DNA of 64,000 bases from an uncultured Ignavibacteria bacterium (GTDB taxonomy: Bacteria; Bacteroidota; Ignavibacteria; Kapaibacteriales; UBA2268). Each line of letters starts with the position of its first letter. Position 1 is the stretch's first letter. A program made the position numbers and the translations under genes. Of this stretch, positions 2,524 to 57,700 are shown one piece after another. The notes beneath the pieces are model-generated. The model was not told the origin of the DNA, ran no database searches, and worked only from the letters and a program-made list of their open reading frames with translations. The stretch is taken from NCBI GenBank assembly GCA_903862655.1, contig CAIOZA010000050.1, forward strand, positions 1 to 64,000, in the 5' to 3' direction.

Positions 2524-2811
2524 TTTAATCCACCGTTACTATTCCAAGTAAATAGTTCCCCAAAAGGATATTTTTGGGGACTGAAAAACATTATCGTCCC
2601 CGTTTTTTCTAATTCCATATATTTCAATTAATTATATCATTATTCAATTTTACAACATTCAATTTTGTAATTTTGAACGTCGCTTCTATTCTATGTTTTC
2701 AGCCATTCGACACGTTTTCGGCACAGACGACATTTTTTCTCTCTCAACCAGCATTCATAACTATTATATTTATAATGTATATACAGTATATATTGTATGA
2801 AATGTATAACT
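2524..2811. other. Intergenic region with a short stem-loop
   Basis: No gene is supported. TCCCCAAAA (2557-2565) and TTTTGGGGA (2572-2580) form a 9-bp perfect hairpin upstream of the Mrr/HNH-repeat gene. The plus-strand ORF at 2673-2912 is a shadow: part of it is the complement of the guaA 3'-end copy. Confidence 0.4.
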
Positions 2812-2851
2812 ATTCCCACTCAATAGTTCCCGGGGGTTTGCTCGTTATGTC
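2812..2851 (-). repeat. Distal 40-bp copy of the guaA 3' end (candidate attachment site)
   Basis: This is identical over 40 bases to 17039-17078, the last codons of the intact guaA. Read on the minus strand it encodes KPPGTIEWE followed by TAG, in the same orientation as guaA. No other part of guaA is present here. A perfect copy of a conserved gene's 3' end 14 kb away is the classic trace of site-specific integration, and the guaA 3' end is a known integration target in other bacteria. Confidence 0.85.
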
Positions 2852-3018
2852 GCAGGATAACCCTTTGGTAAAAATTTACTCAACAATGGATCTTCGCTGG
2901 CTCTCCGGATAATAAGCTTATTTTTATCAGATTCGGACATTCCGGCGAACTCCTTATTGAGCTTCTCCTGAATCTCTTGCTTCATCTTGACAGCGTCGAA
3001 TTTCTTTTCCTTTTTCAT
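2845..3018 (-). CDS. Small antitoxin-like protein paired with PIN toxin
   Basis: Missing from the ORF track because it is only 57 codons. It starts MKKEKKFDAVKMKQEIQEKL two bases after the PIN gene stop. The FDAVKMKREI-type opening is typical of small antitoxin-like proteins encoded next to this class of PIN protein, where the second gene supplies the presumed antitoxin. Its stop codon (TAA, 2845-2847) lies inside the guaA 3'-end repeat, so the C-terminus (LPKGYPAT) was defined by the integration junction and may be truncated. The assignment rests on context and N-terminal pattern. Confidence 0.7.
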   Translation of the reverse strand: MKKEKKFDAVKMKQEIQEKLNKEFAGMSESDKNKLIIRRASEDPLLSKFLPKGYPAT

Positions 3019-3020
3019 AA

Positions 3021-3473
3021 TTATACCATCTCCTTTGGGGAATAAATACTTATCAATTTATAAGAGTTCATTAAGTTTACTGAGTTGAATCCTGAAATTT
3101 TTTCGAAATGAACAATATGTTTAAAATTCCAACTTACTACAAAATCTGCATTATATATCGTTGCATATGCTATATGTTCAGCATCTGTTTTAGATTTATT
3201 TGTCAGCACTTTTGCATTAAGATATTTATCTCTAAGTTCTGACACCTCAGGAGTATAATAAACAAAATCAAATAAATCCTGAGTCATATCGGTAAGGATT
3301 TGTTTTACCACCTTTGGAGCTTCAGCTAATTCTGCTAATAAAATTGGAGAAATTATCAACTTGAAAGAACCATCCTTAACTAATTTGAAGAACATCTTGC
3401 TGGTTTCAGCAAATTCTTCATCGAAACAGCCACCGAAAACTGAAGTATCAGCATAAACTCTATATTGTTTCAC
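3021..3473 (-). CDS. PIN-domain ribonuclease toxin (VapC-like)
   Basis: This 150-residue protein opens with YRVYADTSVFGGCFDEEF, giving the first PIN acidic residue (D in ADTS). Further acidic residues lie in SKTDAEHIAYATIYNADFVVSWN, the middle and C-terminal part of the PIN active site (D...E/H...D). PIN toxins cleave RNA using a metal ion. It is the first gene of a two-gene operon with the 57-codon antitoxin-like gene right after it. The pair occupies exactly the space between two guaA 3'-end copies, so it looks like a self-contained cassette. Substrate RNA is unknown. Confidence 0.8.
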   Translation of the reverse strand: MKQYRVYADTSVFGGCFDEEFAETSKMFFKLVKDGSFKLIISPILLAELAEAPKVVKQILTDMTQDLFDFVYYTPEVSELRDKYLNAKVLTNKSKTDAEHIAYATIYNADFVVSWNFKHIVHFEKISGFNSVNLMNSYKLISIYSPKEMV

Positions 3474-3939
3474 AATACTTTTTCACTCCTGCTTGATTAA
3501 TTCATAAGCTTAATAAATCTATATACGATATTTAAAGAAAAATATTCTTTAATATTCTATCACAGTCTTTTTACTCCCACTCAATAGTAGACATTACCAT
3601 CTTTTACCTACTTTTTTCTATTTATCTACATCCAAATACATTCATAAATAAGAACTTACAGTGTGCCGTTTTTGTTTTCATATTTTTAGATGTATTTGCT
3701 TATACTTAAAATTGTTACTATTTTGTTACTACGACTTAAAAAATTATAAATAATTCTACATTACAAAAATAAGGAAAAAACTCAAAGTTTTAATGATTGT
3801 TAACCAATAACTTTTCCTGACAACATAAACATATTAGTAAAGGTAAGTATTGATTATAAAATAAACTTTTTTCGATTTTTTCTGTCTAATACATTTATAG
3901 ATGAAACAAAAATAGGAATTTTTGATGGAAAATTTTTAA
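3474..3939. other. AT-rich intergenic region holding the short guaA 3'-end copy
   Basis: Apart from the repeat at 3571-3588 I see no gene. A weak TGTCTAA word at 3883-3889 lies before the ECF sigma gene, but no matching upstream box (TGCCAG) sits 16 bases before it. Confidence 0.4.
3571..3588 (-). repeat. Third, short copy of the guaA 3' end
   Basis: On the minus strand this reads ACT ATT GAG TGG GAG TAA, that is TIEWE and a stop, the exact C-terminus of guaA, in the same orientation as the intact gene and the copy at 2812. At DNA level 15 consecutive bases are shared with the other copies apart from one position (CTCCC versus TTCCC). The different stop codons in the three copies (TGA, TAA, TAG) suggest separate integration events. 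The short length makes this less certain than the 40-bp pair. Confidence 0.6.
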
Positions 3940-4509
3940 ATGGAAGATAAAGACTTAATCCTGATGCTGAAGGCAGGCGACACATCTGCTTTTAAGTTAT
4001 TAATTGAGCTTTACGGAAACAAAGTAATCAATACTTGTTACAGATTTTTATTGGTTAAAGAAGATGCTGAAGATATAGCACAAGAAGTTTTTATTGAAGT
4101 TTTTCAGTCTATCAAATCATTTCGTGAGGAATCAAAGCTTTCAACCTGGATTTACAGAATTGCTATTACCAGAAGTTTAGATGAAATAAAAAAACGAAAT
4201 CGGAAAAAAAGAATATCCTCAATAGGCAAAATTCTACATTTAGATGAAGTAGCTCATTGGATTGCGGGTGGTACAATGCCTGACAAGTATTTGCAAGAAG
4301 TAGAAAAGATGAATGAAATTATGCAAGCATTAAATACTTTACCGGAAAGCCAAAGAGTAGCTTTTACTTTGAGCAAAATTGATGGTTTTACTAATTCTGA
4401 AATTGCCGAAACAATGAACACTACCACCATAGCTATCGAATCACTTATTTACCGTGCCAAAAAGAAATTAAGTAATGAACTGAAAAATATTTTAAAAAAT
4501 AATTTGTAA
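3940..4509 (+). CDS. ECF-type RNA polymerase sigma factor
   Basis: 189 residues with region 2 (YGNKVINTCYRFLLVKEDAE, then DIAQEVFIEVFQSIKSFR and LSTWIYRIAITRSLDEIKKR) and region 4 (LNTLPESQRVAFTLSKIDGF, then SEIAETMNTTTIAIESLIYRAKKKL). This is the standard two-domain ECF layout. It directs RNA polymerase to a small regulon, usually under control of a membrane anti-sigma factor. The next two genes encode a one-span membrane protein and a CpxP-like periplasmic protein, so an envelope-stress role is likely. A repeated TGCCAG-N16-CGTCTAA pattern downstream is a good candidate for its own promoters. Confidence 0.92.
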   Translation: MEDKDLILMLKAGDTSAFKLLIELYGNKVINTCYRFLLVKEDAEDIAQEVFIEVFQSIKSFREESKLSTWIYRIAITRSLDEIKKRNRKKRISSIGKILHLDEVAHWIAGGTMPDKYLQEVEKMNEIMQALNTLPESQRVAFTLSKIDGFTNSEIAETMNTTTIAIESLIYRAKKKLSNELKNILKNNL

Positions 4510-4512
4510 AAG

Positions 4513-4541
4513 TGCCAGAACACAAAAAAATAATCGTCTAA
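4513..4541 (+). promoter_or_regulatory. Candidate ECF-dependent promoter 1 (TGCCAG-N16-CGTCTAA)
   Basis: TGCCAG at 4513-4518 and CGTCTAA at 4535-4541 are separated by exactly 16 bases, just before the anti-sigma-like gene (ATG at 4557). CGTC-type -10 boxes and a 16-17-base spacer are typical of ECF sigma promoters. The same two boxes with the same spacing recur at 5465-5493. Confidence 0.6.
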
Positions 4542-4556
4542 AATAATGGAGAGAAA

Positions 4557-4862
4557 ATGATAGAATCAGAATTAAATAAAAAAGTAATGCAAAAACTTAA
4601 CGAGTTTGAAGCAATTGAAGAAATCCAGCCAACATCTGACTGGAGTCTTTCGCTTATGAATAGACTTGATAATACTAAGCCTAATTCATCTTCAAGATAT
4701 ACTCCAATGAGATTTGCTGCTATAATCGTATTTTTTGTCCTAATAAATATAGTTTTTATTTTAAACATCAATCACAGCTCTCAGCAGAATTTAGGTAGGA
4801 ATTTGGAATTACAGATTATTTCAAAAGAGTTATTAGTTAATTCAAATATGATAAACAATTGA
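4557..4862 (+). CDS. Putative anti-sigma factor, single-span membrane protein
   Basis: 101 residues: a soluble N-terminal half containing a short DWSLSLMNRL segment, one transmembrane helix at about 58-75 (FAAIIVFFVLINIVFILNIN) and a short outer tail. It follows the ECF sigma gene and overlaps the non-ATG extension of the next ORF. Size, topology and position fit a minimal anti-sigma factor or a co-regulated membrane protein. No zinc-binding HxxxCxxC motif is visible, so it is not a ZAS-type anti-sigma. Function is inferred from context. Confidence 0.6.
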   Translation: MIESELNKKVMQKLNEFEAIEEIQPTSDWSLSLMNRLDNTKPNSSSRYTPMRFAAIIVFFVLINIVFILNINHSSQQNLGRNLELQIISKELLVNSNMINN

Positions 4863-4873
4863 GAAATAATACA

Positions 4874-5422
4874 ATGGATATTTTTACACAAAAAAAATTC
4901 TTGGTAATCACAATTATTGTGCTTGCTGTTCTGAATATTACTTTAATGGGATTCTTTTTGATAAGAGGCAATAGTAATAGACCTGAACAATCTAACAATT
5001 CTTTTTCAAAAGATAAAATAACTGATTTATCAGATGTTCTAAAAAAGGAACTTGCTTTATCAGCAGAACAAGTTGAACGAATAAAAAAAATTCGCTCTGA
5101 TTTTTTTGAAAAGGAGAAAGAATTATCAAAAGAAATCCGTGGAGTTAGAGATTCAATGAATTTTATCATGTTCAACAAAGATACTGATGAAGAAATTGTA
5201 AAAGATTTAGCAAAAAGAGTTTCTGAATATGAATATAAGATGGAACTATTAAGATATGAGCAGGCTCAACAATTTAAATCAATTTGCACTCCGGAACAAA
5301 GGGAAAAATTTGAAGCACTTGTTAAGGAAATAAGAGATTATTTCAAGCCAAATAATCAACCACCAAGAAAAGGTGATAGACCACCAAGAAGAGATGAAAA
5401 ACCTATCAAAAGGAATGATTAA
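4874..5422 (+). CDS. CpxP/Spy-like periplasmic stress-sensor protein
   Basis: From the ATG at 4874 (MDIFTQKK) the protein has an N-terminal membrane segment (LVITIIVLAVLNITLMGFFL) and a helical domain. LALSAEQVERIKKIRSDFF and STPEQREKF-like (CTPEQREKF) are the LTxxQ-type motifs of the CpxP/Spy/Zra family, here spaced about 90 residues apart with a coiled coil between. The tail is proline/arginine-rich (PPRKGDRPPRR). Such proteins bind misfolded envelope proteins or metals and feed back on the stress regulator. The longer ORF start at 4859 is a TTG that overlaps the upstream stop; I prefer 4874. Confidence 0.75.
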   Translation: MDIFTQKKFLVITIIVLAVLNITLMGFFLIRGNSNRPEQSNNSFSKDKITDLSDVLKKELALSAEQVERIKKIRSDFFEKEKELSKEIRGVRDSMNFIMFNKDTDEEIVKDLAKRVSEYEYKMELLRYEQAQQFKSICTPEQREKFEALVKEIRDYFKPNNQPPRKGDRPPRRDEKPIKRND

Positions 5423-5464
5423 CGCAAGGGATATTTAAAAAAAAATAATTTATTTCTAAAATTC

Positions 5465-5493
5465 TGCCAGTTAGTAAAAATTTTGTCGTCTAA
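5465..5493 (+). promoter_or_regulatory. Candidate ECF-dependent promoter 2 (TGCCAG-N16-CGTCTAA)
   Basis: TGCCAG (5465-5470) and CGTCTAA (5487-5493) have the same sequence and the same 16-base gap as the copy at 4513-4541. It lies about 80 bases before the phosphoesterase start. This implies the sigma factor also drives the secreted phosphoesterase genes. Confidence 0.6.
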
Positions 5494-5506
5494 TATTTTG
5501 TTAAAT

Positions 5507-5539
5507 AACCTTCTGAAGTTTTGATGACTTCAGAAGGTT
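5507..5539 (+). other. 12-bp stem-loop in the leader of the phosphoesterase operon
   Basis: AACCTTCTGAAG (5507-5518) pairs perfectly with CTTCAGAAGGTT (5528-5539) around a 9-base loop. It lies between candidate promoter 2 and the gene start. The sequence after it is AAAGAAG, not T-rich, so it is not an obvious terminator on the plus strand; it may stabilise the mRNA leader. Confidence 0.5.
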
Positions 5540-5571
5540 AAAGAAGATTTGAAAATTATTTTAAGGAATTT

Positions 5572-7257
5572 ATGACATATATAAAACTAAATATACTACT
5601 TATCAGCTTAATCGTGCTAAGCAATCTGGCTTCAGCGCAGACTTTCTATGAAATATTAGGTAGACCAACGGAATCTGCTATAACCATAAATATCGTGTTT
5701 AACCAATCACAACAGGAAGAAGTCTATTGGGAATATGGAACAAGTCCTGGTTCTTATTCCTTGAAATCAAAAACACATACTACAGATGGTAATAGTGCAC
5801 CACTTGTGGCTGAATTAACAGATTTATTGCCTAATACAGAATATTATTATCGGACAAGGTATCGTCAAAGTGGCTCTTCATTCGAATTTCTGACTGGTGA
5901 GGAACATTCATTTTATACCCAAAGAGCTAAGGGAAGTACATTTACTTTTACCATACAAGCCGACCCTCATTTGTATGATAAAAAAGGGTGCGATAATATG
6001 ATAAAAGAAACTATGGAAAACATGCAAAAAGATAAACCTGATTTTTTATTAGATTTGGGCGATACATTTGGTGATGACCACAATCCTTTTACAATAACTG
6101 ACAATGAAATAAAGAAATTACATTCTGATTACTTACCATTTTTTAATATGGTTTGCAATTCGGCGGCACTATTTTTATGTTTAGGTAATCATGAAGGAGA
6201 AAGCGGTTATTATCTTCTCCAAACTCCTCCAAATAATCTCGCTACTATGGCTACAAAATGGAGAAAATATTATTATTCTAATCCCGAACCGAATGGATTT
6301 TACTCAGGCAATACCGAAGAAGAAGGCAATGGAATTGGAAAACCCCAAAACTATTACGCATTTGAATGGGGTGATGCTCTAATTGTAGTTATGGATGTTT
6401 ATCGCTATTATACTGCAAATGAGAAACCAAAAGGTTGGGACTGGACAATTGGAGATAAACAGTATTTTTGGTTAAAAAATACTCTTGAGAACAGCAAAGC
6501 CAAATATAAATTCGTTTTTGCTCATCATACTCTCGGGCAAGGTCGTGGGGCTATTTCAACAGCGATGCTTAATGAGTGGGGTGGTTGGAAAGATACAAAA
6601 AAAACAAGTTATGATTTTGATAAAAATCGCCCTGGATGGGGTAAACCAATACACCAATTAATGGTTGATAATGCTGTTAATATTTTCTTCCAAGGGCATG
6701 ACCATCTTTTTGCTCAAGAAGAATTAGATGGTTTAATATATCAAGAGTGTCCTATGCCGAGCGATTCCACTTATGAAATTGGTATGCTTGCCAATGCTGA
6801 TGCTTATGTATCAAATCAGTTAAACGGAACAGGTCATATTCGGGTAACTGTTAATCCTGACAATTCAAAAATTGATTTTGTTAGAGCATATCTTCCGAGT
6901 GATACCAACGATATACGTAAAAATGCAGAAATTGCATTTTCTTATACGGTGAACCCAAAAGTAACATCAGTTGAAAATTCAATCCCAGCAACTTTACAAT
7001 TAGAGCAGAATTATCCAAATCCGTTCAGTTCTGAAACTTTTATCAGATATTCTGTTGCTGAAGCAGGTAGTGTCCAGCTAAAAGTTTATGATATTTTTGG
7101 GAGGGAACTATCAACTCTTGTCAATGAATACCTACAGCCTGGGACTTATACAATTCCTTTTAAAGTTGATAATTTATCTGCACAGAATGGAATGTATTTT
7201 TATAAACTTACATCATCAAATTCTTCAGAAACAAGGTCAATGATATGCTGGGAGTAA
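5572..7257 (+). CDS. Secreted metallophosphoesterase with type IX sorting domain
   Basis: 561 residues with a signal peptide (ILLISLIVLSNLASAQ), an N-terminal fibronectin-like domain as in purple acid phosphatases (ITINIVF to TRYRQSG), and a calcineurin-like phosphoesterase core. The metal motifs are visible: QADPHLYD (D-x-H), DLGDTFGDD (GD), LGNHEGE (GNHE), FAHHTLG (H) and FQGHDHLF (GHDH). The C-terminal ~85 residues begin LEQNYPNPFSSETFIRYS and contain VYDIFGREL and GMYFYKL, a type A T9SS sorting domain. It probably hydrolyses phosphate esters outside the cell or at its surface. A close paralog follows. Confidence 0.9.
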   Translation: MTYIKLNILLISLIVLSNLASAQTFYEILGRPTESAITINIVFNQSQQEEVYWEYGTSPGSYSLKSKTHTTDGNSAPLVAELTDLLPNTEYYYRTRYRQSGSSFEFLTGEEHSFYTQRAKGSTFTFTIQADPHLYDKKGCDNMIKETMENMQKDKPDFLLDLGDTFGDDHNPFTITDNEIKKLHSDYLPFFNMVCNSAALFLCLGNHEGESGYYLLQTPPNNLATMATKWRKYYYSNPEPNGFYSGNTEEEGNGIGKPQNYYAFEWGDALIVVMDVYRYYTANEKPKGWDWTIGDKQYFWLKNTLENSKAKYKFVFAHHTLGQGRGAISTAMLNEWGGWKDTKKTSYDFDKNRPGWGKPIHQLMVDNAVNIFFQGHDHLFAQEELDGLIYQECPMPSDSTYEIGMLANADAYVSNQLNGTGHIRVTVNPDNSKIDFVRAYLPSDTNDIRKNAEIAFSYTVNPKVTSVENSIPATLQLEQNYPNPFSSETFIRYSVAEAGSVQLKVYDIFGRELSTLVNEYLQPGTYTIPFKVDNLSAQNGMYFYKLTSSNSSETRSMICWE

Positions 7258-7274
7258 AATTTAAAAAGGAAACA

Positions 7275-8972
7275 ATGAGAACTCTTTATTTATTTGCAAT
7301 TGCGTTATTATCATTTATCCCTTTGTTTTCATACAGTTCTGTAGCAAAAGTTGAATCAGATTCATTGGTTTTCATTTGCAATGAATTATTAGGCAGACCA
7401 ACATCAAATTCAATAACCATTCATGCAAGTGCGAATAAATCATTAGATGTTTATTATGAATACGGAATTGATTCTTCGGCATATTCAAATCAGACAAGTA
7501 TGAAATCCAGCCAGGATTCAGTCCCTTTTATTTTTATTATTGATAATCTAAAGCCCAATACTCAATATTTTTACCGAATGAGATTCCGAGAAACAGGTAC
7601 AACCGAATATATTTGCAGAAGTAGTTATAAATTTGTAACACAACGTAAATCAGGTGAAACATTTAAGTTTGCAATCGAAGCAGACCCTCATCTTGATACT
7701 AATTCAAATCCTGCATCTTATGCTTTGACACTTCAAAACATACTTGCAGCTAATCCCGATTTTCTGCTGGATTTGGGTGATACTTTTATGTCTGAAAAGT
7801 TACCTCAAAAAAAACAAACTGAAATTACAAAACGTCATCTTCTTTTGCGTTCTTATTTCGATATTATTTGCCATTCAGTACCTCTATTCCTCATTATTGG
7901 TAATCATGAGGGTGAAGTAGGCTGGGAACTTGATGGCACAGCAAATAATCTTGCTGTCATGGCATCAAATACTCGAAAATATTATTACCCAAACCCTGAA
8001 CCAAATTCTTTCTATTCAGGAAATTCCAAAAGTGAAAATTTTGTTGGACTTAGACAAAACTATTATTCCTATGAATGGGGTAATGCTCTGATTGTTGTAC
8101 TTGACCCTTATTGGTACACTACAAGTAAAACCGGATGGGGCTGGACTCTCGGCATCGAACAATACAATTGGTTCAAATCAACTCTTGAGTCGAGCAAATC
8201 TAAGTTTAAATTTGTATTTTGTCATAATCTGGTAGGAGGCACTGAAAAGGATGCACGTGGAGGAATTGAAGAAGCTGATTATTATGAATGGGGTGGCAAA
8301 GATTCTAATAATACATATAGCTTTGACAAAAAACGTCCTGGTTGGAGCATGCCAATTCATCAGTTGATGGTTGAGAACAAAGTAAATATATTTTTTCATG
8401 GACACGACCATTTTTATGGTAAACAAGAAAAAGATGGTATAATTTACCAGGAATGTCCACAACCTTCTAATAGAAATATCCAAAATACTCAGGCAACCAA
8501 TTATGGTTATTTAAATGGGACTATTCTTCCTGGACGTGGTTATTTGCTTCTTACAATTACTGATTCGACTGCTAAGGTTGATTATATCAAAACATTTGTG
8601 CCTTCTGAAGAAAAGGGCGGTGTCCATAATGGAGATATTGGACATACCTATACATTGAAAATTTCAGGTACAACAGAGGTAATCGAAAATCAAAATATAC
8701 CTGAAGAATTTAGATTAGTACAGAATTATCCAAATCCATTTGCTAAGCAAACACAAATCAATTATACTCTACTGAATCCAAATAACGTAGAATTGAAAGT
8801 ATTTGATGAAAATGGTCAAGATGTAATAACTCTGGTAAATAAATTCCAGCAAGCAGGTCCATATTCAGTATCATTTGATGCTGAAAAGTTCTCTTTGCCC
8901 AGCGGAACTTATTATTATAGCATTACAATAGGTAATAATACATTAACTAAAAAAATGGTATTGATAAATTAA
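7275..8972 (+). CDS. Secreted metallophosphoesterase with type IX sorting domain (paralog)
   Basis: The ATG at 7275 has an AAAAGGA ribosome-binding site and gives a clean signal peptide (MRTLYLFAIALLSFIPLFS); the ORF-track start at 7245 is less likely. The layout matches the upstream gene: fibronectin-like N-domain, then EADPHLDT, DLGDTFMS, IGNHEGE, FCHNLVG and FHGHDHFYG as metal-site motifs, and a C-terminal NYPNPF sorting domain ending LTKKMVLIN. The two genes are tandem duplicates, clearly diverged, in one operon under candidate promoter 2. Confidence 0.9.
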   Translation: MRTLYLFAIALLSFIPLFSYSSVAKVESDSLVFICNELLGRPTSNSITIHASANKSLDVYYEYGIDSSAYSNQTSMKSSQDSVPFIFIIDNLKPNTQYFYRMRFRETGTTEYICRSSYKFVTQRKSGETFKFAIEADPHLDTNSNPASYALTLQNILAANPDFLLDLGDTFMSEKLPQKKQTEITKRHLLLRSYFDIICHSVPLFLIIGNHEGEVGWELDGTANNLAVMASNTRKYYYPNPEPNSFYSGNSKSENFVGLRQNYYSYEWGNALIVVLDPYWYTTSKTGWGWTLGIEQYNWFKSTLESSKSKFKFVFCHNLVGGTEKDARGGIEEADYYEWGGKDSNNTYSFDKKRPGWSMPIHQLMVENKVNIFFHGHDHFYGKQEKDGIIYQECPQPSNRNIQNTQATNYGYLNGTILPGRGYLLLTITDSTAKVDYIKTFVPSEEKGGVHNGDIGHTYTLKISGTTEVIENQNIPEEFRLVQNYPNPFAKQTQINYTLLNPNNVELKVFDENGQDVITLVNKFQQAGPYSVSFDAEKFSLPSGTYYYSITIGNNTLTKKMVLIN

Positions 8973-8990: not shown

Positions 8991-10619
8991 ATGATAAGAA
9001 ATAGATTCTCGAAAGTTATAACTATTATACTAATGACATTGTTGGGTTATAATTTACAAGCTCAAAAGCTAATTCCTTATAAGCTACCAGATACGGGTCA
9101 AAATACTAAATATTCAGCTAATTCTGGAGAAGATGCTGATGTACTTTTGAACCCAATGGCATTTACTGATAATGGGAATGGTACTATTACTGATAATATC
9201 ACAGGTTTGATTTGGCAAAAAACAGATGGCGGAGAAATGACTTATGACCAAGCTATTTCTTGGGTAAATACTTTAAATTTAGATAATGTATCGGGCTGGA
9301 GATTACCAACAGCAATAGAATTGTTCTCAATAAATAATTTTGATAAACTCAATCCTGCTTTAAATACAACTTATTTTACAAAAACTGCCGCAGAATATTG
9401 GTGGACAAGTGATGTCCAAGTTGGTGATGCCACAAAAGTATGGGCTGTAAATGCCGGTGGTGGGATTGGTAATCATCCAAAATCTGAAACAATAAGTGCA
9501 GGCGGAACGAAAAAATTTCATGTCCGTGCTGTCAGAAACACTTTTTCAACAACCTTCAGTGTTAGCCATTTTACAGATAACGTAAATGGTACGATAACAG
9601 ATAATTTTACTGGATTAGTTTGGCAAAAAATTCAATCTACTAATACTTTGACTTGGGAAGAGGCTTTATCTTATGCCAATACTTTTACTTTGGCTGGTAA
9701 ATCTGATTGGAGATTGCCAAATATTAAAGAACTTCAATCACTCAATGATGTAAAATTATCTAAACCTTCATTTGATAAAAAGTATTTTTCTGATATTATT
9801 TCAGGTAATTATTGGTCTTCGACAACAATGTTTAATACAGCTACAAAAGCATGGGACATTAATCTTGATTTTGGCGTAGTATCTTATTCTGACAAAACCA
9901 CAAAAGAATATGTGTTACTTGTCCGTGGAGGTATGGATAATAAAGACTTAAACATATCTGAATCTAATATCCAAGGCGGAGAATATGATATGGGAGACCA
10001 TTTTGGATTTGTTGACCCAGGTCACCCCAGTGATGAAACACCTATACATAAAGTAAAAGTCAATAGTTTTAATATGGCAAAAACAGAAGCAACTAACCAA
10101 CAATTTTTATCATTTTTAAATTCATATTTTCAACAAGGATTAATTGAAGTAAAAAATAATATTGTATATTCCAAAGGAACTAATGATATTTATTTCTACA
10201 CACATGAATATGCATCATACTATAGTATTGGTTATGATGGTAAAGTATTTTCAATAGCTGATTTCAGGTCGAACCATCCGGTTGTTGGAGTAATGTGGGC
10301 TGGTTGTACTGCTTTTTGTAACTGGCTAAGCTTGCAGAATGGTTTAGATGAATGTTATAATCTAAAAACATATAATTATGATTTCACAAAAAACGGCTAT
10401 AGACTGCCAACAGAAGCTGAATGGGAATATGCTGGTCGTGGTGGTCATATTAACCCTTATTTTAATTATCCATTAGGGAATTCTATTGACATTACTGGAG
10501 TAAACCTTCCTGATTCCAAAGACCCTTACGAGAGTAAAACTGGAGCAGGGAACAATCCCCTGGCAAAAGACTTGGAAAACTTCATTGCCAAAGAATTTTG
10601 TTTCAGACGTTGCCTATAA
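8991..10619 (+). CDS. Secreted DUF1566/FGE-sulfatase-type protein, 3' end replaced by ArdC DNA
   Basis: A signal peptide (IITIILMTLLGYNLQAQ) is followed by two DUF1566/Lcl-type repeats: GNGTITDNITGLIWQK then GWRLPTAIEL, and VNGTITDNFTGLVWQK then DWRLPNIKEL. A formylglycine-generating-enzyme-like domain starts near residue 325 (GGEYDMGDHFG, NGYRLPTEAEWEYAGRGG). Homology stops at about residue 514 (DSKDPYES); the remaining ~28 residues are out-of-frame ArdC sequence. The FGE fold and any type IX sorting domain are therefore cut off. The protein may still be made but is probably non-functional as an FGE-type protein. Confidence 0.8.
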   Translation: MIRNRFSKVITIILMTLLGYNLQAQKLIPYKLPDTGQNTKYSANSGEDADVLLNPMAFTDNGNGTITDNITGLIWQKTDGGEMTYDQAISWVNTLNLDNVSGWRLPTAIELFSINNFDKLNPALNTTYFTKTAAEYWWTSDVQVGDATKVWAVNAGGGIGNHPKSETISAGGTKKFHVRAVRNTFSTTFSVSHFTDNVNGTITDNFTGLVWQKIQSTNTLTWEEALSYANTFTLAGKSDWRLPNIKELQSLNDVKLSKPSFDKKYFSDIISGNYWSSTTMFNTATKAWDINLDFGVVSYSDKTTKEYVLLVRGGMDNKDLNISESNIQGGEYDMGDHFGFVDPGHPSDETPIHKVKVNSFNMAKTEATNQQFLSFLNSYFQQGLIEVKNNIVYSKGTNDIYFYTHEYASYYSIGYDGKVFSIADFRSNHPVVGVMWAGCTAFCNWLSLQNGLDECYNLKTYNYDFTKNGYRLPTEAEWEYAGRGGHINPYFNYPLGNSIDITGVNLPDSKDPYESKTGAGNNPLAKDLENFIAKEFCFRRCL

Positions 10620-11364
10620 AGGTATTAACCAGATATTGCTTGGTATGCAAGATTTTGAAAGTAATTATTGGCTCTCATACAAGCAAGTAAAAGACCTTTC
10701 AGGTTGGGTAAAAAAAGGCGAACATAGTTCAATGGTTGTTTTTTGGAAACCAATAGTAAACAACAGGCACCAAGAACTTGATGAAAGTTCTGCTGATGTT
10801 CACTTTTTGCTAAGATATTATAATGTTTTCAATATTGAACAAGTTGAATTACCTGATGAAATCAAATCTGAGAGAATAACAGATAGTTCAAACACAAAAC
10901 TTCTTTCAGCTGAAAACATTATTGATAATTACCCGAAACCGCCTGCAATAGTCATTAACAATACAATTCCAAATCCCAGATATTTGCCGAGAATTGACCG
11001 TGTTGAGATTCAATCAATTTCTAACTTTAACAGCTCTGATAGCTATTATTCAAGCCTATTCCATGAACTTGTTCATAGTACTGGACACAATGAAAGATTA
11101 GCTCGAAAAGGTATAACAGATAAAATTGAATTCGGCTCCGAAAGATATTCAAAAGAAGAACTAATTGCTGAAATTGGTGCAAGTTTTTTATCTTCTCTTT
11201 CTGGCATTGAAAATACTATCAACAACCAAACCAGTTATATCGGAAATTGGCTACAGGTATTACATAATGACAAACGAATGGTATTGATAGCAGCAAGTCA
11301 GGCACAGAAAGCTGTGGACTGGATTATTGGTAATTCTGATAACAATAACAATTCGGAATTATAA
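10537..11364 (+). pseudogene. ArdC-like antirestriction protein missing its 5' end
   Basis: The frame reads KLEQGTIPWQKTWKTSLPKN and onward YKGINQILLGMQ, NYWLSYKQVKDLSGWVKKGE, VVFWKP and later YYSSLFHELVHSTGHNERLARKG. That is ArdC: the N-terminal ssDNA-binding domain followed by a zincin-type HExxH-like site (HELVHSTGH). The usual first ~20 residues are missing, because the homology begins abruptly at about 10534, exactly where the FGE gene breaks. ORF callers start it at a TTG (10585). ArdC proteins protect incoming DNA from restriction during conjugation. This copy marks a deletion or insertion joint, and expression would depend on a rescue start. Confidence 0.8.
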
Positions 11365-11421: not shown

Positions 11422-11464
11422 ATGTAAAATTATAATAATAATTCAAATAGTGAGGTTTTTACTT

Positions 11465-12091
11465 ATGAATGAAAAAATTAGAGTAGTTGCCTATATTCGT
11501 GTTAGTACTGAGCAACAATCAACAGATAAGAACATCAACGATATTTTGAGATTTGTACATGACAAGGATCTCAATCAATTAGGGAAATTAGAAATTGTAG
11601 AAGAAAAGATTTCTGGTTCTGTCCATTGGAAAGAAAGAAAAATATTTGATGTTGTCAATGAACTCAAAGCAGGAGATTATCTTATCATTCCTGAAATTTC
11701 GAGGTTATCCAGAAAATCATACGAAATATTTGAAATACTCAGTATTCTTCTTCAGAAGAAAATAAATGTTTTTGCTTTGAAAGAAAATTGGCAACTTGAT
11801 GATTCATTGCAAAGCCAGATTTTAGCTTTTGCATTTAGTCTCTCAGCAACAATTGAAAAGAAATTGTTGCAGGACAGAACCCGTGAGGCTCTTAAAGCCA
11901 GAAAGCTAGCCGGTGTAAAATTGGGTCGCCCTATTGGTTCTGGGAAGAGTAAACTTGATGAATTCAAGATTGAGATTGAATCAATGATAAAAAATGGAGT
12001 AACTCAATCATTCATAGCCAAGAAATATGGCTTGTCTGCTCAAGCAGTTTACAACTGGACAAGAAAAAATATAATTCAGATAAAGAATTAA
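11465..12091 (+). CDS. Serine recombinase (resolvase/invertase family)
   Basis: From the ATG at 11465 (MNEKIRVVAYIRVSTEQQS) the protein has the catalytic serine in RVSTEQQ, the conserved arginines in EISRLSRKSYE and IEKKLLQDRTREALKARKLAG, and a C-terminal helix-turn-helix (VTQSFIAKKYGLSAQAVYNW). At ~208 residues it has the size of small resolvases/invertases, not of large serine integrases. It cuts and rejoins DNA at short sites. The next gene encodes an excisionase-like protein. It likely serves element resolution or inversion. Confidence 0.92.
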   Translation: MNEKIRVVAYIRVSTEQQSTDKNINDILRFVHDKDLNQLGKLEIVEEKISGSVHWKERKIFDVVNELKAGDYLIIPEISRLSRKSYEIFEILSILLQKKINVFALKENWQLDDSLQSQILAFAFSLSATIEKKLLQDRTREALKARKLAGVKLGRPIGSGKSKLDEFKIEIESMIKNGVTQSFIAKKYGLSAQAVYNWTRKNIIQIKN

Positions 12092-48721: not shown

Positions 48722-51700
48722 ATGACTGATTTGGATAAAATCATATCTGATATATCAAATAATGAAGAATTTGAATATAGTGAATTATTTAAATTTTTAA
48801 CTTCAGAGAATAACGAAGAAAGAGCCAGTATTTTGGCTAGATTTTCCAAAGCTTTCTATAATCGGAAGGGAAGGCATTTAGACCAAGCAGAGATCTTTGC
48901 AAAACGAGCTTATTCTATTTCAAATGATAAGATTTATTATTCAAATCAATTGGTAGATATTTTGATCGAACAACAAAAAGTAGAAGATGTCAAACAAATA
49001 TATAAAAGAGTTGGTCTGGAGTATCTAAAAATACACCAAATTAAAGAAGCTCTTTTTTATTTTGACAAATGGCTCTATGCTTATCCGGATATTTTAAAAA
49101 TTGATAAGTATGAATATGATTTGGATATTCTGGACGCTATTAATGCTTATGTTGCAAATAAAGGATTTGAATCAAATTCTATGAGCCATTGCTTAGACAG
49201 CAAATTAAAGATCGGATTTCTTGTTAAAGGTATTACAGAATCAAATTCTGTTTTAATTAAAATTAATTATCTTATTGCAAAATATCTTGATAAAATGATA
49301 TTTAAGTTGAGCTTCTTTTTTCCTGAGACTGAAAGTGAAATCTTAAATTCAAAACAAGGAAAGTCACTTTTAGAATCTTTCCACAAACTTGATGTCAAAT
49401 GTTTTTATGCTGAAGACATTTCGGATTATGAAAAACAATTATTTAGTGTTGTAGAAAAAATTAAATCTGAAAGAATAATTTTATTGGTAATGAGTGATTC
49501 TCTTGGTACATTTAGTCATTACTTTATTAGCTCATTTAAGCCTGCACCCATAATGCTTGGGCTCTTACAGGGGCCACCACCGCAATTTATTTCATCTTTG
49601 CTTGACTGGGCTATCTCTTGGAGTTATCACCCTTTAATTGATTCGCCAGTTCCAACTAAATATGTAAAATTACAGATGGAACTACCAAACAAAAATGATA
49701 TAGTACTAAGAACAAAGCAATTTTTTGGGTTGCCAGAGAAATCTCAAATTATTTTGTCAGGTGGCAGGTATGTAAAATTCCAGGATATTCAATATGTCGA
49801 GTCTTTATTGAATATACTAATAAAAGATTCTAATAGATACCTTGTAATTATAGGTCCAAGTATAGAACAAATCCCTTTTATTGTAAACCTAGCAGAAGAA
49901 GAAATTCTAAATAGAGTAAGAATATTTCCATGGATGGAAAATTATCTTGAATTAGCCCGGCATGCAGATGTGATGATTGATACATATCCATCAGGAGGTG
50001 GTGTTCTGCCTTTCGACATTGCATCATTGGGGATTCCCATTATTTCCTTTCAAAATGATTACCTTAATGAATTTGACCAAACACAATGGTCACCTTTGCA
50101 GGAGTTTATTAGTAATGATGAATTGACGCTAAAAAGAGGTGACTATAAATCTATAACAGAATTGGCTGATAGATTGCTTGGAGATGATGAAATGAAAACA
50201 AGGTTAGGAAACAAATGTAAAGAAGAAATCTATGAGAAAGTTAGTCACCCAGAAGTAACAGTTAGGAAATGTGAAGAAGTATTTTTTAAGCTTATTCAGG
50301 ATCGGTTAGGTTCGGAATACATTCCATATAGTGAAAAGGAAAACAATATGATTAGCGAAGATTCAAGATCAAAAAATATAGAACCTTCTGTAAAACCTAT
50401 CTTTTCTGCCGGTGTTTCTGCGAATAATCAGGACAACTATCTAGCTAAAACAGGAGTATCTGAGCCTGCACCATCAGAAGATAATGGAAATCTGGAATAC
50501 TGGAAAGAAATGCAAAATGATGAGTATTTCGAAAAACATGATTGGTATGGAAAAAAATATGGAGGATTAAAGCTTTTTGGCGATGATATGGGTATTATTA
50601 ATAACTATACCAATCTTTCCAAATCAATGAATACAGTTGTAATCGGTTGTGGGTACGGTAGGGAATCTGTTAATATTGGGCCACATGTAAATCATATTTA
50701 TGGTATTGATGTTAGTGAGACTATTCTCAATAAAGCCGTCGAATTCACGAAACAAAATGGAGTTTATAACTTCACACCGGTTTTGGCAGACAACTGGGAG
50801 GAATCAATACCTGAAAACATAGACTTTGTTTATACATTTGTCGTATTCCAGCATCTTTCAAAAAGTTTGGTCAGAAATTATATTTCAGGTTTAAGAAAAA
50901 AATTGAATGCAGGTGGCCGGTTCTTATGCCAATTCTGTGAATCCGACTATGGTTCTGAGGATGCTGAATTGAAAGTTTACGAGCCTAATGTAAAATGGAC
51001 CAGACAGGAAATTATCGATCTTATTAGAGAAAATAATCTAAATGAAATTACGATTCAGACTACCCAGGTAACAGAAAGTGCACGGTTTCATTGGGCATTG
51101 TTTGAGAAGGCTGAGAATGGCGAAAATACAGAATCTGATTTATCGAAAAAATTTGATAGACATTCATTAAAACCCTTATTCTCAATAATAGTACCATCCT
51201 ACAACCAGGCTGATTACTTGCCCGCTGCTTTAGATTCCATACTTGCCCAGACATTTACAGACTGGGAAACTATTATTGTTAATGATGGATCAACAGATAA
51301 TACCAAATCTGTAATGGAGGAATATACAAGGAAAGATTCAAGATTTAAATTATATCATAAAGATAATGGTGGCGTTGCAACAGCCCTGAATATAGGCATC
51401 AAACAATCAAAAGGCGAATGGATCTGCTGGCTATCCAGTGATGACCTGTTTGAACCCGATAAACTTGAAATTCATTATAAAGCAATCCGAGAGCATCAGA
51501 ATATAAAATTCTTCTGTACTCATTGGTATATCTTAATGCATGAGACACAGCAAAAGATAGCTCCTGGCCTTTGGCTTCCTGTTCCTCCAAAGGAATTTCA
51601 GGTAACTCGATTCTTCTGGGCTAACTATATACACGGCAATTCAATAGCAATTCACAAAACCGTTTTTGATAAAGTAGGTTTATTCGATGAAACTTTGCGA

Positions 51701-54700
51701 CAGGGACAGGACTTCGATATGTGGTTGCGAATATCAGCCTGTTATGAATCGCATTTTATAGATAAAAGAACTTGTGTTACCAGAATCCATCCTGATCAGA
51801 CTACAAATTCGTTTCTTGAAGGAGGGGTGCTTGACTCCACAAGAGCGTTATTTAAATATTTAGATAATAATTCATTCGAAGCACTTTTCCCGTTCTTCGA
51901 TTTTAATAATACAAATGATATAATGCTTGCTTTAGGTGAAGTTTTTTTTGTTTCTACCAAGATAGATGCTTTTTTATATAGATGTGGATATACAAAAGCA
52001 CTAGTTGAAAGGACTTTGGAATGGGTTTCAAACAAACTAGAATTAAATATAAGAAATCAAGTATATGAAATAATTGAAAGAGTAGTAAATGAGCACCTTA
52101 AGGATAAAAAACCTGAAGGTCTTGTTCAGGTATTAAAATCGTTTTTAAATAAGGATAATGTTCATTATAAAGAATTGGATTTTATAAATGTGGTTGTTGA
52201 TTATATAAAATTAAATATTGATGAAGGCTTACAACAAAAAACAATTGCTCTTGAGAAATATTTAGAAAAATTGCTATCTCAGAATGCGGTTGAATATCAT
52301 AATATTAAGTATAATCCTGTACTTTTGGGTTTTCCAAAGGTCAATGAATATTCACCAATAAAATCCACTAATATTATTAATTGGGGTGTTGAACCTGTTG
52401 GAATGCATAGTAATTGCATAAGACAGAAAATAATATTAAAGTGCGATTCCTGTGGATCTGATATCTCAATCCAATTTGAATACGAGATGAACGAAGAGCA
52501 TTCTGAGTATAAATTTATTTGTACCCATTGCAAAAAAGGATTTTTATTCGATGATAAAGATTTTGATATAAATTTTATGGAGTTCCATAATAATTCTGTC
52601 ATCCATGAACCAAAACATATAACAACCAGGAATATTGCCTATTTGATTCCTGATATGTCGTCAATTGGTGGTGGGACTAAAATAGCTTTAAAACATATAC
52701 AATGGCTTTTCAATTTAGGTTATGATGTTACATCCTATTCCTATTCAGTTAAACCTGATTGGCTAGATACTAATATACATTTTATACAGATCAAGGACGC
52801 TACTGAATTAGATGAGCGAACATCAGATTTATTTATAATTTCTAGCATTTTTGATATACCCAAAATACTAAATAAGATTCCCATCCATAAAGTAGTACTA
52901 CTTTGTCAGGGTTATGAAGGCTATCATTTTGGTAGCGATTTCATAAAATTGAGATCTGATAAACATATTTTAACAAAACTTCATTCTATCCCTGTTAAGG
53001 TTATAACGGTATCTAAACATCTTGTTGAACTTTTTAAAACCAAATTTAATCGTGAAGTAGAATACATTCCGAATTGCATAGATCATAATGTTTTTACATA
53101 TTCGGGTTATACTCCCGACAGGGAGAAATCAATATTATTTATTGGCAATCCATTTCATACTTTAAAAGGATTTCCTTTCATTGCAGGTGCTTTGAAAATA
53201 ATTCAGGATTCACAAGTAAAAATTTCTTCTTTGAAACTATATATTGTCATGGGTTTTGAATTTGATAACCATGAAACAATTCGGATGAATCTTGAAAGGG
53301 ATATAGGATGCAGAGTTGAATTTCTTTTCAAATTGAGCTCATTCGAAATTGGTGCACTTATGAAAAGAGTAAGTATTGTTGTTTGTACATCATGGTATGA
53401 AGGATTCTCTCTGCCTCTCATTGAGGCTATGGCATGCGGAACTCCTGTAATAACAACTAATAATATGGGTGCTGAGAGTTTCTGTAAGAATAAGACTAAT
53501 TCATTTGTAGTGAGATTTGGTGATAATATAGGTTTGGCTCAAGGTATAATAGATATTTTATATAACCGCTTTGATATGAGTTTGATTTTACAGAATGCAT
53601 ATCAAACTTCCCTAGAATATTCGGAACTTAACTCAGAAAAAGCACATAAAATAGCTTTTAAGCATTTAATTGCATCATCAATTAAGCAATTTGATATTGA
53701 TTCTAATAGTGACGCATATAGTTCAAAGAATATTTATTCTACCAGAAATACCTTTACAAGAACTATTGATAATGACAAAGAAGATAATTCAATACAATTA
53801 AAAGTAAAATCTGATGTTTTTGAAATTAAAAAATATTCTGAAAGAATTCTTTTTGTAGTTCATAACTTCCCAATGAATTGGGCTGGAGGAACCGAACTAT
53901 ATACTTATAATTTAGCGTTAGATCTAATTAATTCAGGCAAGGATGTCCATGTCTTATTCCCAAGTCCTGATAGTTATACAAATAGAACCATAATAACAGA
54001 AAGTAATTATAATGGTATTAAAATCTTCGAGGTAAAATATAAGCATAATTGCTATTCAAAGGAAGAATTTTCGAGTCTATTCGAGGAGCTAATAGTTAAA
54101 GAACAATACGATGTTGTACATTTTCATCATACTAAAGGCTTACATCAAGAGATATTCGATATTCCAATAAAATTAAAGATTAAATCGGTTCTAACTATTC
54201 ACGATTTTCACTTAGTTTGCACCAGGCTTCATCTTTACATTCCTGATACAAATCTTGTTTGCACCGGACCTGAGACTCCTCAAAAATGTGTTGAATGTTT
54301 GATTTCAGATGCTCCTGATACAGAAAAATATAAACTAATCACAAAGGAACTAAGCAATCAGTTATCACATTTAAAAAGCATATTTCCTTATTTCGACTTA
54401 GTTACAGCGCCATCAAGATATGTCAAAAATGTATTTGAGTCAAATAATCTTTTGAATAAAAATTTTATAATCAAGGAATTAGGCATAAAAAAAATAGTCA
54501 GTCAAAGAGTAAAAAGAGAAGGAAAAGATCTAGTCTTTGGATTTGTTGGTGCTTTACACAAATTAAAGAATATTGAACTATTACTAAATGTGTTTGAATC
54601 GATTACTTCAGATAATGTAAAATTAGAAATATGGGGAAATGGTCATCCAATAACAATTGAAGGGCTAAAACAAAGAACTGCGGATAGTAAAAATATTCAA

Positions 54701-57700
54701 TATTTTAGAGACTATTCCTATGAAGAAATAGGAGATATCCTCTCAAGATTTGATGTACTTATTGTGCCGTCGTTCAATGAAAGCTATTGTTTAACTGTAA
54801 GAGAAGCATTGTCGGTTAACTTACCCGTTATAGCTTCAAGTAGAGGCGGTATACCCGAGGTTGTCATTGACAATGTTAATGGGATACTGTTTGATCCGTC
54901 AAATAAAATAGAATTAGTTAATATCATCAATAAAATCATTGATGAGCCTGATATTTTGGGTAGATTAAGAAAGTCAGAAATTGAAATAAGAGATCTCAAA
55001 AAAGATATTGATGATTGGGCAGATATTTATTCTAATCTCATAAAATCAAATTTGGAATATAAACCCAGATTACTTGAAGAAATTGATTTCTCAATAATTA
55101 TTCCTGTTCATAATAAATGGCAATTCACAAAAGCTTGTATAGAATCAATTGAAAGCACAAATGGTAATAATAAATTAGAAATAATAATTATTGATAATGC
55201 ATCCAATGACAACACTGGAGAATATTTGAAATCCTTAGGCAGAGATATAAAGGTAATTTCACACACTACTAATGAAACTTATGCTAAGTCAAATAATGAA
55301 GGTGCCAAAATATCTAAGGGAAAATATCTTGTTTTCTTAAACAATGATACTCAAGTTCTGTCAGGGTGGTTAGAAGCTATTAAAATTGAATTTGATAATA
55401 ACCCTTCTACCGGGATTCAGGGAGCTAAGTTACTATATCAAAACGGGAAAATTCAGCATGCTGGTATGGTGTTTGGTTCAAGACCTGGTAGAGATGCTGA
55501 GCCATATCACGCCTATTTAATGGCTGATCCTAATGCTTCGTTCGTCAATAAACGCAGAGAAGTTCATTTCGTAACTGGTGCATTATTATCAATCAGAAAG
55601 GATGATTTTAATAAAGCAGGTGGTTTTGATGAGCAATATAACTTTGGTTGGGAAGATACTGATCTTTGCATGAAGGTTTCTACATTAGGAAAAAGAATAA
55701 TATATAATCCATTGATTTCAGCTTTCCATTTTGAATCAGCAACAAAACTTCTGAGACAAAGCATTGGCGACGATATGGTTAGCGATAATACTCCTAAAGA
55801 AAAAAGGAACAGAGAGATATTCTTTAATAAATGGTCAAGTATGCTAACAGATAACTCATACGAGTTCTATGCTGAGGATGGATTGAAAATTCAGGAGAAC
55901 TCCATTATTCCTATGAATGACAATGAATTGGCTCTATATGCAAGTAAAAGAGAGGAAATGAAATCTATTCACTCAAATTATATCTCATCCTTCGCCAAAT
56001 ATTTCTGGCAGACCAATTATGACTCAATATCATCTCTCCTAATCATTCCTACTTCAGCAGTTGGGGATAATCTGATGCTTACGGCTTTGGTGGCGGCTTT
56101 GAAGGCTCAGTTCCCTCATCTTTCTATCTATATTAAACGGAACAGGATGGCTGATCTGATTTTTAAGGGTCATGGAGGAATTGCAGGATATGTTACGAGT
56201 GAAGATGAGAGTAAGTTTGACAAGACAATTGATTTTAATAATATTATTGCGAAATTGCCTGAGTATTACAATGGAATTGCCTTTATGGATATTCTTGGCA
56301 ATCTAGCCGGATTTAAGTTCGTTAAGCGTGACATAGTTTATCAGATAAGCGACATTGAAAGAGGGAGAGCAAAGAAGGCGTTAAAGAATTTTGATGGGCA
56401 TGAAATCGTTGGTGTTCATTTTTCGACTTCAAAGGATGTTAAGAGATCCTATCCTCATGGAAGGGAATTGCTAAAAATTCTTGAGCATAAGAATCCAAAT
56501 CTGAGGTTTGTTCATTTCGGTAATGAAAGTATCGGGAAACTTAATGATAGTTATGTGTTTGATTGTGCCGAAAATTCTGTAGATTTACGATCACAGATTG
56601 CAATTGCTGAACAGTGTTCAAAGTTCATCACGATTGACAGTGCATTCTTCCACATCGGGCATAATTTATTTAGAAAGCCAACTCTTGCAATTCTTGGATT
56701 GACAAATCCGGCGCTAATTGGGTATCACGAAGCCTCTTTTGCTTATATAAATCATGAACTTATGAATTGCCTGAATTGTTATTGGCAGAGACAATGCAAG
56801 ATAGAATGTATGAATGACCTACTTCCAACAGTCATTGCTGAGGCATTTATGGACATTAAGAACCGGATAAAATATTCACCTGAACAACAAGTCTTCGAAG
56901 TCAATGTTGCTGCTGATTTTTATGCAGATAAATTTATATTTGAACATTACGCATCCAGACGTGATGGCACAAAGTTAGTACTGAATGATTATGATGACCT
57001 ACTTCCGGATTACTCAAAATATTGGAATGGAATAGCTATTAAAAAATCTAAGGTTAATAAAACAGAAATGAACAATTACAATTCCCCCGCAGATTATCAG
57101 GAAGAAAGCTATTTCGAGGCTCTTTCCGATAGAAAAATTAAGGTTGGATCGGACAGAACTCAAGCTGAGTCGTTAAAGCTAAATTTGGGTTGCGGCGATA
57201 CGATCGAAGCCGGTTTTATTAATATTGATCTTTATAGTGAAGGTCCTGATATTGTTAATATGGATGCAAGAAGTCTGGAATATGATGATTCAAGTGTCGA
57301 TACTATTCTTGCTGCCGATTTGCTTCAGTGTTTCTCGCATAATGAGATTGGTGATGTTCTTACTGAATGGGTAAGAGTTTTGAAGCCCGAAGGAAAACTC
57401 ATTATTTCCTGCACATCCATGAAACAGATTTCAAGATTACTTCTTAATGGTTTAATAAATTCCGAGATAGCTTCAAAGCTTCTTTTTGGTAACCAAGAAG
57501 ATAATGCTCATATTTATTTCTCGGCATTTGATGAGGATTTTTTAACTAAGGAACTTGTTTCGGCTGGTTTTACTATTGAGTCATACGACGAATCTAACGA
57601 GGCAGAATCATTAGAGGACATTAATATTAGTATTGTTGTTGGTGCAGTAAAATCTAAAAACCATAGTATGCCCGAACTTACAAATGAGAATTCTACTGCC

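Follow-up and report, generated by a model that had tools for sequence, protein, structure and literature searches.

Twin conserved boxes at an ECF sigma factor locus of an uncultured Ignavibacteria bacterium as putative promoters of an anti-sigma/sensor pair and a type IX-sorted phosphoesterase operon

Two identical boxes, each consisting of TGCCAG and CGTCTAA separated by 16 bases, bracket a pair of small genes that follow an ECF sigma factor gene in an uncultured Ignavibacteria bacterium (assembly GCA_903862655.1, contig CAIOZA010000050.1). The window, i.e. the whole stretch of DNA analysed, comprises positions 1 to 64,000 of the forward strand of this contig. The locus raises the question of what the boxes do: they may be promoters of the adjoining sigma factor, binding sites of another regulator, or a resemblance without function. 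We consider it very probable that both boxes are promoters of this sigma factor, the first serving the anti-sigma and sensor genes and the second the phosphoesterase operon, and that they would together constitute a local regulon.

Genes at the locus

The sigma factor contains sigma regions 2 and 4 only, at about 190 aa, the architecture of ECF (group IV) sigma factors (Table 1). It scores above the TIGR02937 cut-off, and its PDB matches include SigH, SigW, RpoE and CnrH. The next gene, which starts 15 nt downstream of box 1, probably encodes the anti-sigma factor; its product has zero Pfam matches and no PDB relative detectable by sequence, and the sigma-anti-sensor gene order is conserved across the sigma family. 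The third product, the sensor, is the sole PF13801 protein in the genome, with Metal_resist (5.8e-9) and LTXXQ (4.7e-8) matches that are both above cut-off. The AlphaFold model of this protein is similar to ZraP, CnrX and CpxP, with a Foldseek probability of about 1, but with weak E-values above 0.05 (0.07-0.3). Read from its probable start, the sensor lacks histidine altogether and contains a single cysteine, which lies at the LTxxQ motif position within the pattern [ILVF]C[TSN]xxQ and is kept in nearly all relatives.

Table 1. Features of the locus, in window coordinates
Feature	Position	Strand	Remarks
ECF sigma factor, 189 aa, regions 2 and 4	3940-4509	+	Pfam Sigma70_r2 1.2e-16, Sigma70_r4_2 5.4e-16
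Putative promoter box 1, TGCCAG-N16-CGTCTAA	4513-4541 (4513-4518/4535-4541)	+	Between sigma stop and anti-sigma start
Probable anti-sigma factor, 101 aa	4557-4862	+	Cytoplasmic N-terminus of ~55 aa, one transmembrane helix
Putative membrane-anchored periplasmic sensor, CnrX/CpxP/Spy/ZraP type	4859-5422, probable start ATG 4874	+	Metal_resist/LTXXQ
Putative promoter box 2, TGCCAG-N16-CGTCTAA	5465-5493 (5465-5470/5487-5493)	+	Upstream of phosphoesterase operon
Perfect 15-bp hairpin, predicted PE1 5' leader	5506-5540	+	-22.9 kcal/mol, z -5.9
PE1, secreted metallophosphoesterase with T9SS sorting domain	5572-7257	+	Metallophos 3e-11, Por_Secre_tail 1.7e-8
PE2, second T9SS-sorted metallophosphoesterase	7245-8972	+	Metallophos 2e-9, Por_Secre_tail 2.5e-7
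Lcl_C + formylglycine-enzyme-like (FGE) protein, truncated	8991-10619	+	True homology ends near 10541-10559

PE1 and PE2 are both metallophosphoesterases of the calcineurin-like type, and both carry type IX sorting domains. PE1 scores above the TIGR04183 cut-off, and its metal-ligand motifs (DxH, GD, GNH, H and GHDH) are invariant in A3. The PE2 start overlaps the PE1 stop, with the true start probably at ATG 7275. A sequence search found no solved structure related to the phosphoesterases. The Lcl_C/FGE product aligns to residues 1-517/525 of relatives of 751/763 aa; the final ~230 residues, T9SS tail included, are missing. The last part of this gene (10541-10619) runs into a 5'-truncated ArdC gene (10585-11364), which is followed by a serine recombinase gene (11450-12091); at this junction, recombination or an insertion has cut through the effector operon. 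The first-pass annotation had placed the locus on an island, a view based on its patchy distribution, the adjoining ArdC and serine recombinase genes and the truncated last gene rather than on delimited ends. Elsewhere in the window, the open frame at 48722-59716 is very long, at 3664 aa.

The boxes in the window and in the genome

The boxes are identical, have the same 16-base gap and lie exactly where the first-pass annotation had described them. In the 4.07 Mb genome, the exact pattern occurs at these two places only, its reversed-pattern control has 0 exact matches, and no one-mismatch copies exist elsewhere; at two mismatches, there are 33 sites for the box pattern against 54 for the reversed control across the whole genome. 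The number of exact matches expected by chance is ~0.03 per genome, a post hoc figure based on the window's dinucleotide composition. Because further sites are absent even with one mismatch, the regulon is local, not genome-wide. The claim of an ECF regulon therefore stands for two promoters at the locus and falls for any wider set in the genome, and an envelope-stress regulon of genome-wide extent is ruled out. The sigma gene itself has only a weak TGTCTAA (3883-3889) with no matching -35, the hexamer 16 bases 5' of it being ATAAAC; both points had been noted before, and an autoregulatory box is absent there. Scans for sigma-70-type promoters gave 49 matches, the same as in shuffled sequences, and were uninformative.

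Two boxes noticed post hoc are weak evidence on their own, and for this reason the conclusions depend on the comparative tests. At its simplest, the resemblance could be one of chance or shared descent between two similar AT-rich intergenic stretches that have no promoter function. Besides the post hoc character of both the boxes and their expectation, this explanation draws on the fact that only draft genomes are available; but the motif is replicated in independent loci, its N16 spacing has stayed fixed while the spacers themselves diverged, and it was recovered by a blind genome search (see below). We therefore find a functionless resemblance scarcely credible.

Conservation of the motif across the sigma family

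Relatives of the sigma factor were gathered from the order and class, most of them from draft or environmental records, and the surroundings of their sigma genes were read. When all CGTCYAA near sigma gene ends were aligned with no -35 demanded, another block of conservation became apparent 16 bases 5', with the consensus [TC]G[CA][AC][AG]G. Across 35 loci (286 kb), the combination of YGMMRG and CGTCYAA has 25 sites at N16 versus 0-1 at each other spacer from 8 to 25. Replication relied on 77 independently fetched loci, none used in motif derivation, and on a pattern slightly relaxed at the -35 and -10 (YGNMRG and CGTC[CTA]AA). These loci contain 25 sense-strand sites at N16 and 0-2 at other spacings, most of them where the sigma gene begins or ends. 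All four of the closest new loci (L166-L169) have a box, placed either between the sigma and anti-sigma genes or at the 3' end of the sigma gene, that of L166 being a CGTCTTA variant. A boundary box is present in 18 of 43 sigma-family loci, including 7 of the 8 in the closest group, and in none of 24 loci of unrelated ECF genes; among more distant sigma relatives (35-48% identity), it is recognisable in 7/19 and 4/16. The position of box 1 is matched in G113, G233, G015, G046, G283 and L166-L169, and in the closest loci the box lies 14-23 bases upstream of the anti-sigma start. In G046 (L034), the sigma gene (oriented 2759-3265) has an apparent frameshift near its end, with the box intact.

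In 381 genomes of the class searched blind, TGMCAGN16CGTCTAA has 11 sites, eight of them at loci of the sigma family. In 14 genomes, half of the 40 matches to a broad pattern fall inside sigma loci, and the other 20 are not in excess of the control count (35).

These sites could be genuine and yet be bound by some other transcription factor, since regulators, too, can recognise bipartite motifs. However, the loci share no other regulator gene, the motif tracks the sigma family and is missing at unrelated ECF genes, and it is direct rather than palindromic, with ECF -35/-10 geometry; its short distance from the anti-sigma start in the closest loci also speaks against this explanation, which we judge very unlikely. 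What recurs at cognate regulon genes is the pairing typical of ECF promoters, i.e. two boxes at a fixed spacing of 16-17 bases with a CGT-type -10. Conservation, fixed spacing, position at the sigma, anti-sigma and effector boundaries, absence at unrelated ECF genes and virtual absence from the rest of the genomes, all directly observed, strongly favour the reading as ECF promoters that the first-pass annotation had proposed.

Box placement and effector genes in relatives

Paired layouts are found in several relatives. L116 (G233) has three TGCCAG boxes, upstream of the anti-sigma gene, of the PE1 homologue (box at 3111-3139) and of a further T9SS operon. One box precedes a YHYH or LTXXQ operon in L081 (G113), L123 (G299), L124 (G157), L083 (G109) and L166, while an opposite-strand box lies upstream of a divergent Lcl/FGE or PE1 gene in L119 (G283) and L169. 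As a box precedes the PE1 homologue in G233 and, divergently, in L169, the earlier proposal that T9SS-sorted phosphoesterases are tied to the sigma factor gains support. The -35 hexamers are alike within a locus (mean 0.5 differences versus 1.99 when shuffled, p ~5e-5); likeness within loci together with difference between them is expected if each box set is read by its own sigma factor, though promoter duplication, rather than independent selection, could explain part of this.

An alternative concerns the role of box 2: box 1 would be a sigma-dependent promoter, but the phosphoesterases would be transcribed mainly by read-through or from another promoter, with box 2 weak or blocked by the hairpin between it and PE1. 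This hairpin could impede transcription, and no second box is seen in G015 and G046, whose phosphoesterases would consequently need box 1 or another promoter. Against this, box 2 reproduces box 1 exactly, boxes upstream of PE1 recur in two relatives, and the hairpin has no T-run 3' of its stem and is not among the terminator-like elements listed. This alternative is, in our estimation, unlikely. The hairpin occurs once in the genome, which rules out a common terminator repeat, and it is missing in the short PE1 leader of L116.

Placement relative to the sigma gene also varies. Most members of the window's sigma clade have the box between sigma and anti-sigma genes. It is upstream of the sigma gene in G313 and at both positions in G286 and G009, and the G301 contig starts inside the site. 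The neighbours of the sigma/anti/sensor module differ as well: MbnP-like, MauG/MbnH-like and YHYH proteins in L081, L083, L166 and L167, and VTC, DUF4956-like and CotH-type genes in L227 and L168. In the Chitinophagaceae loci L212, L221 and L226, a box sits directly where a gene of secreted, outer-membrane type begins, ~3 kb upstream of the sigma gene.

Proposed mechanism and significance

In the preferred reading, RNA polymerase carrying the sigma factor would bind both boxes and start transcription from each, with box 1 yielding the anti-sigma protein and periplasmic sensor, and box 2 yielding PE1, PE2 and the product of the now truncated Lcl_C/FGE gene. At rest, the putative anti-sigma factor and the CnrX/CpxP-fold sensor may keep the sigma factor at the membrane, by analogy with CnrYXH, until a periplasmic cue releases it. 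The freed sigma factor would then turn on the secreted enzymes and, simultaneously, its own inhibitor and sensor. Given that the sigma gene lacks a box, its basal supply would come from another promoter, and feedback is expected to be negative only, acting through the inhibitor. The cue is probably not a metal bound by histidines as in CnrX, because the sensor has a conserved cysteine in place of histidine; copper, redox or misfolded protein are possibilities. The sensor has a fold of the CnrX/CpxP/ZraP type, but the envelope-stress role put forward in the first-pass annotation is no more than possible.

More tentatively, and with appreciably less than even confidence, the family may represent a horizontally spread, self-contained switch of Bacteroidota/Ignavibacteria-type bacteria, in which an ECF sigma factor with an unusual YGMMRG -35 governs enzymes exported by type IX secretion once a Cys-containing, His-free CnrX-like sensor perceives its cue. 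The promoter would have moved between sigma and anti-sigma genes in the window's lineage, leaving negative-only feedback, and effectors would be interchangeable (phosphoesterases; MbnP-MauG-YHYH; CotH-VTC), sets that hint that copper or phosphate is handled on the cell surface.

The motif, its placement and its cargo appear to be new. They provide a concrete promoter code, open to experiment, for an ECF family that is found across Bacteroidota and relatives and is still uncharacterised, and would link the control of proteins exported by type IX secretion with a periplasmic sensor of CnrX/CpxP-like type. With boxes upstream of the sigma gene, the anti-sigma gene or both, positive and negative ECF autoregulation become directly comparable among relatives.

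Comparison with known systems

The locus resembles CnrYXH, the regulator of cobalt/nickel resistance in Cupriavidus metallidurans, in that an ECF sigma factor, a small putative anti-sigma factor with a single transmembrane helix and a membrane-anchored sensor of predicted CnrX fold adjoin one another. CnrX binds metal through His ligands, a type of site that is absent from the window's sensor. The anti-sigma protein fits the CnrY-like (class II) type in size and single transmembrane helix, with no sequence match, and the likeness of the sigma factor to CnrH is only at the ordinary ECF level. Cupriavidus metallidurans has CnrH-dependent promoters before cnrY (cnrYp) and before cnrC (cnrCp; PMC9045368), and the same division into one sigma-dependent promoter for regulatory genes and one for the effector operon is predicted here. 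In the window, however, the order is sigma, promoter, anti-sigma and sensor, which leaves the sigma gene outside its own promoter, and the effectors are T9SS metallophosphoesterases and an Lcl_C/FGE protein instead of a metal-efflux operon. The sensor shares its predicted fold and LTXXQ/Metal_resist family with CpxP, Spy and ZraP, but differs from them in its membrane anchor and in its link to a sigma factor instead of a two-component system.

Among promoters, an AAC core in the -35 is common in characterised ECF groups, though not universal, and is lacking both in TGCCAG of the window and in YGMMRG of the family. Region 4 of the family's sigma factors carries Glu-Ser ('VESL') where Escherichia coli RpoE has Arg-Ser, which could account for such a -35. 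SigW promoters of Bacillus subtilis (consensus TGAAACN16,17CGTA; PMC2375139) are alike in having a hexamer, a 16-base spacer and a CGT-type -10, but differ in the -35 core, and the anti-sigma factor and regulon are unrelated. Autoregulation is predicted for ~55% of ECFs (PMC8103513), and promoters of this kind are therefore ordinary in principle.
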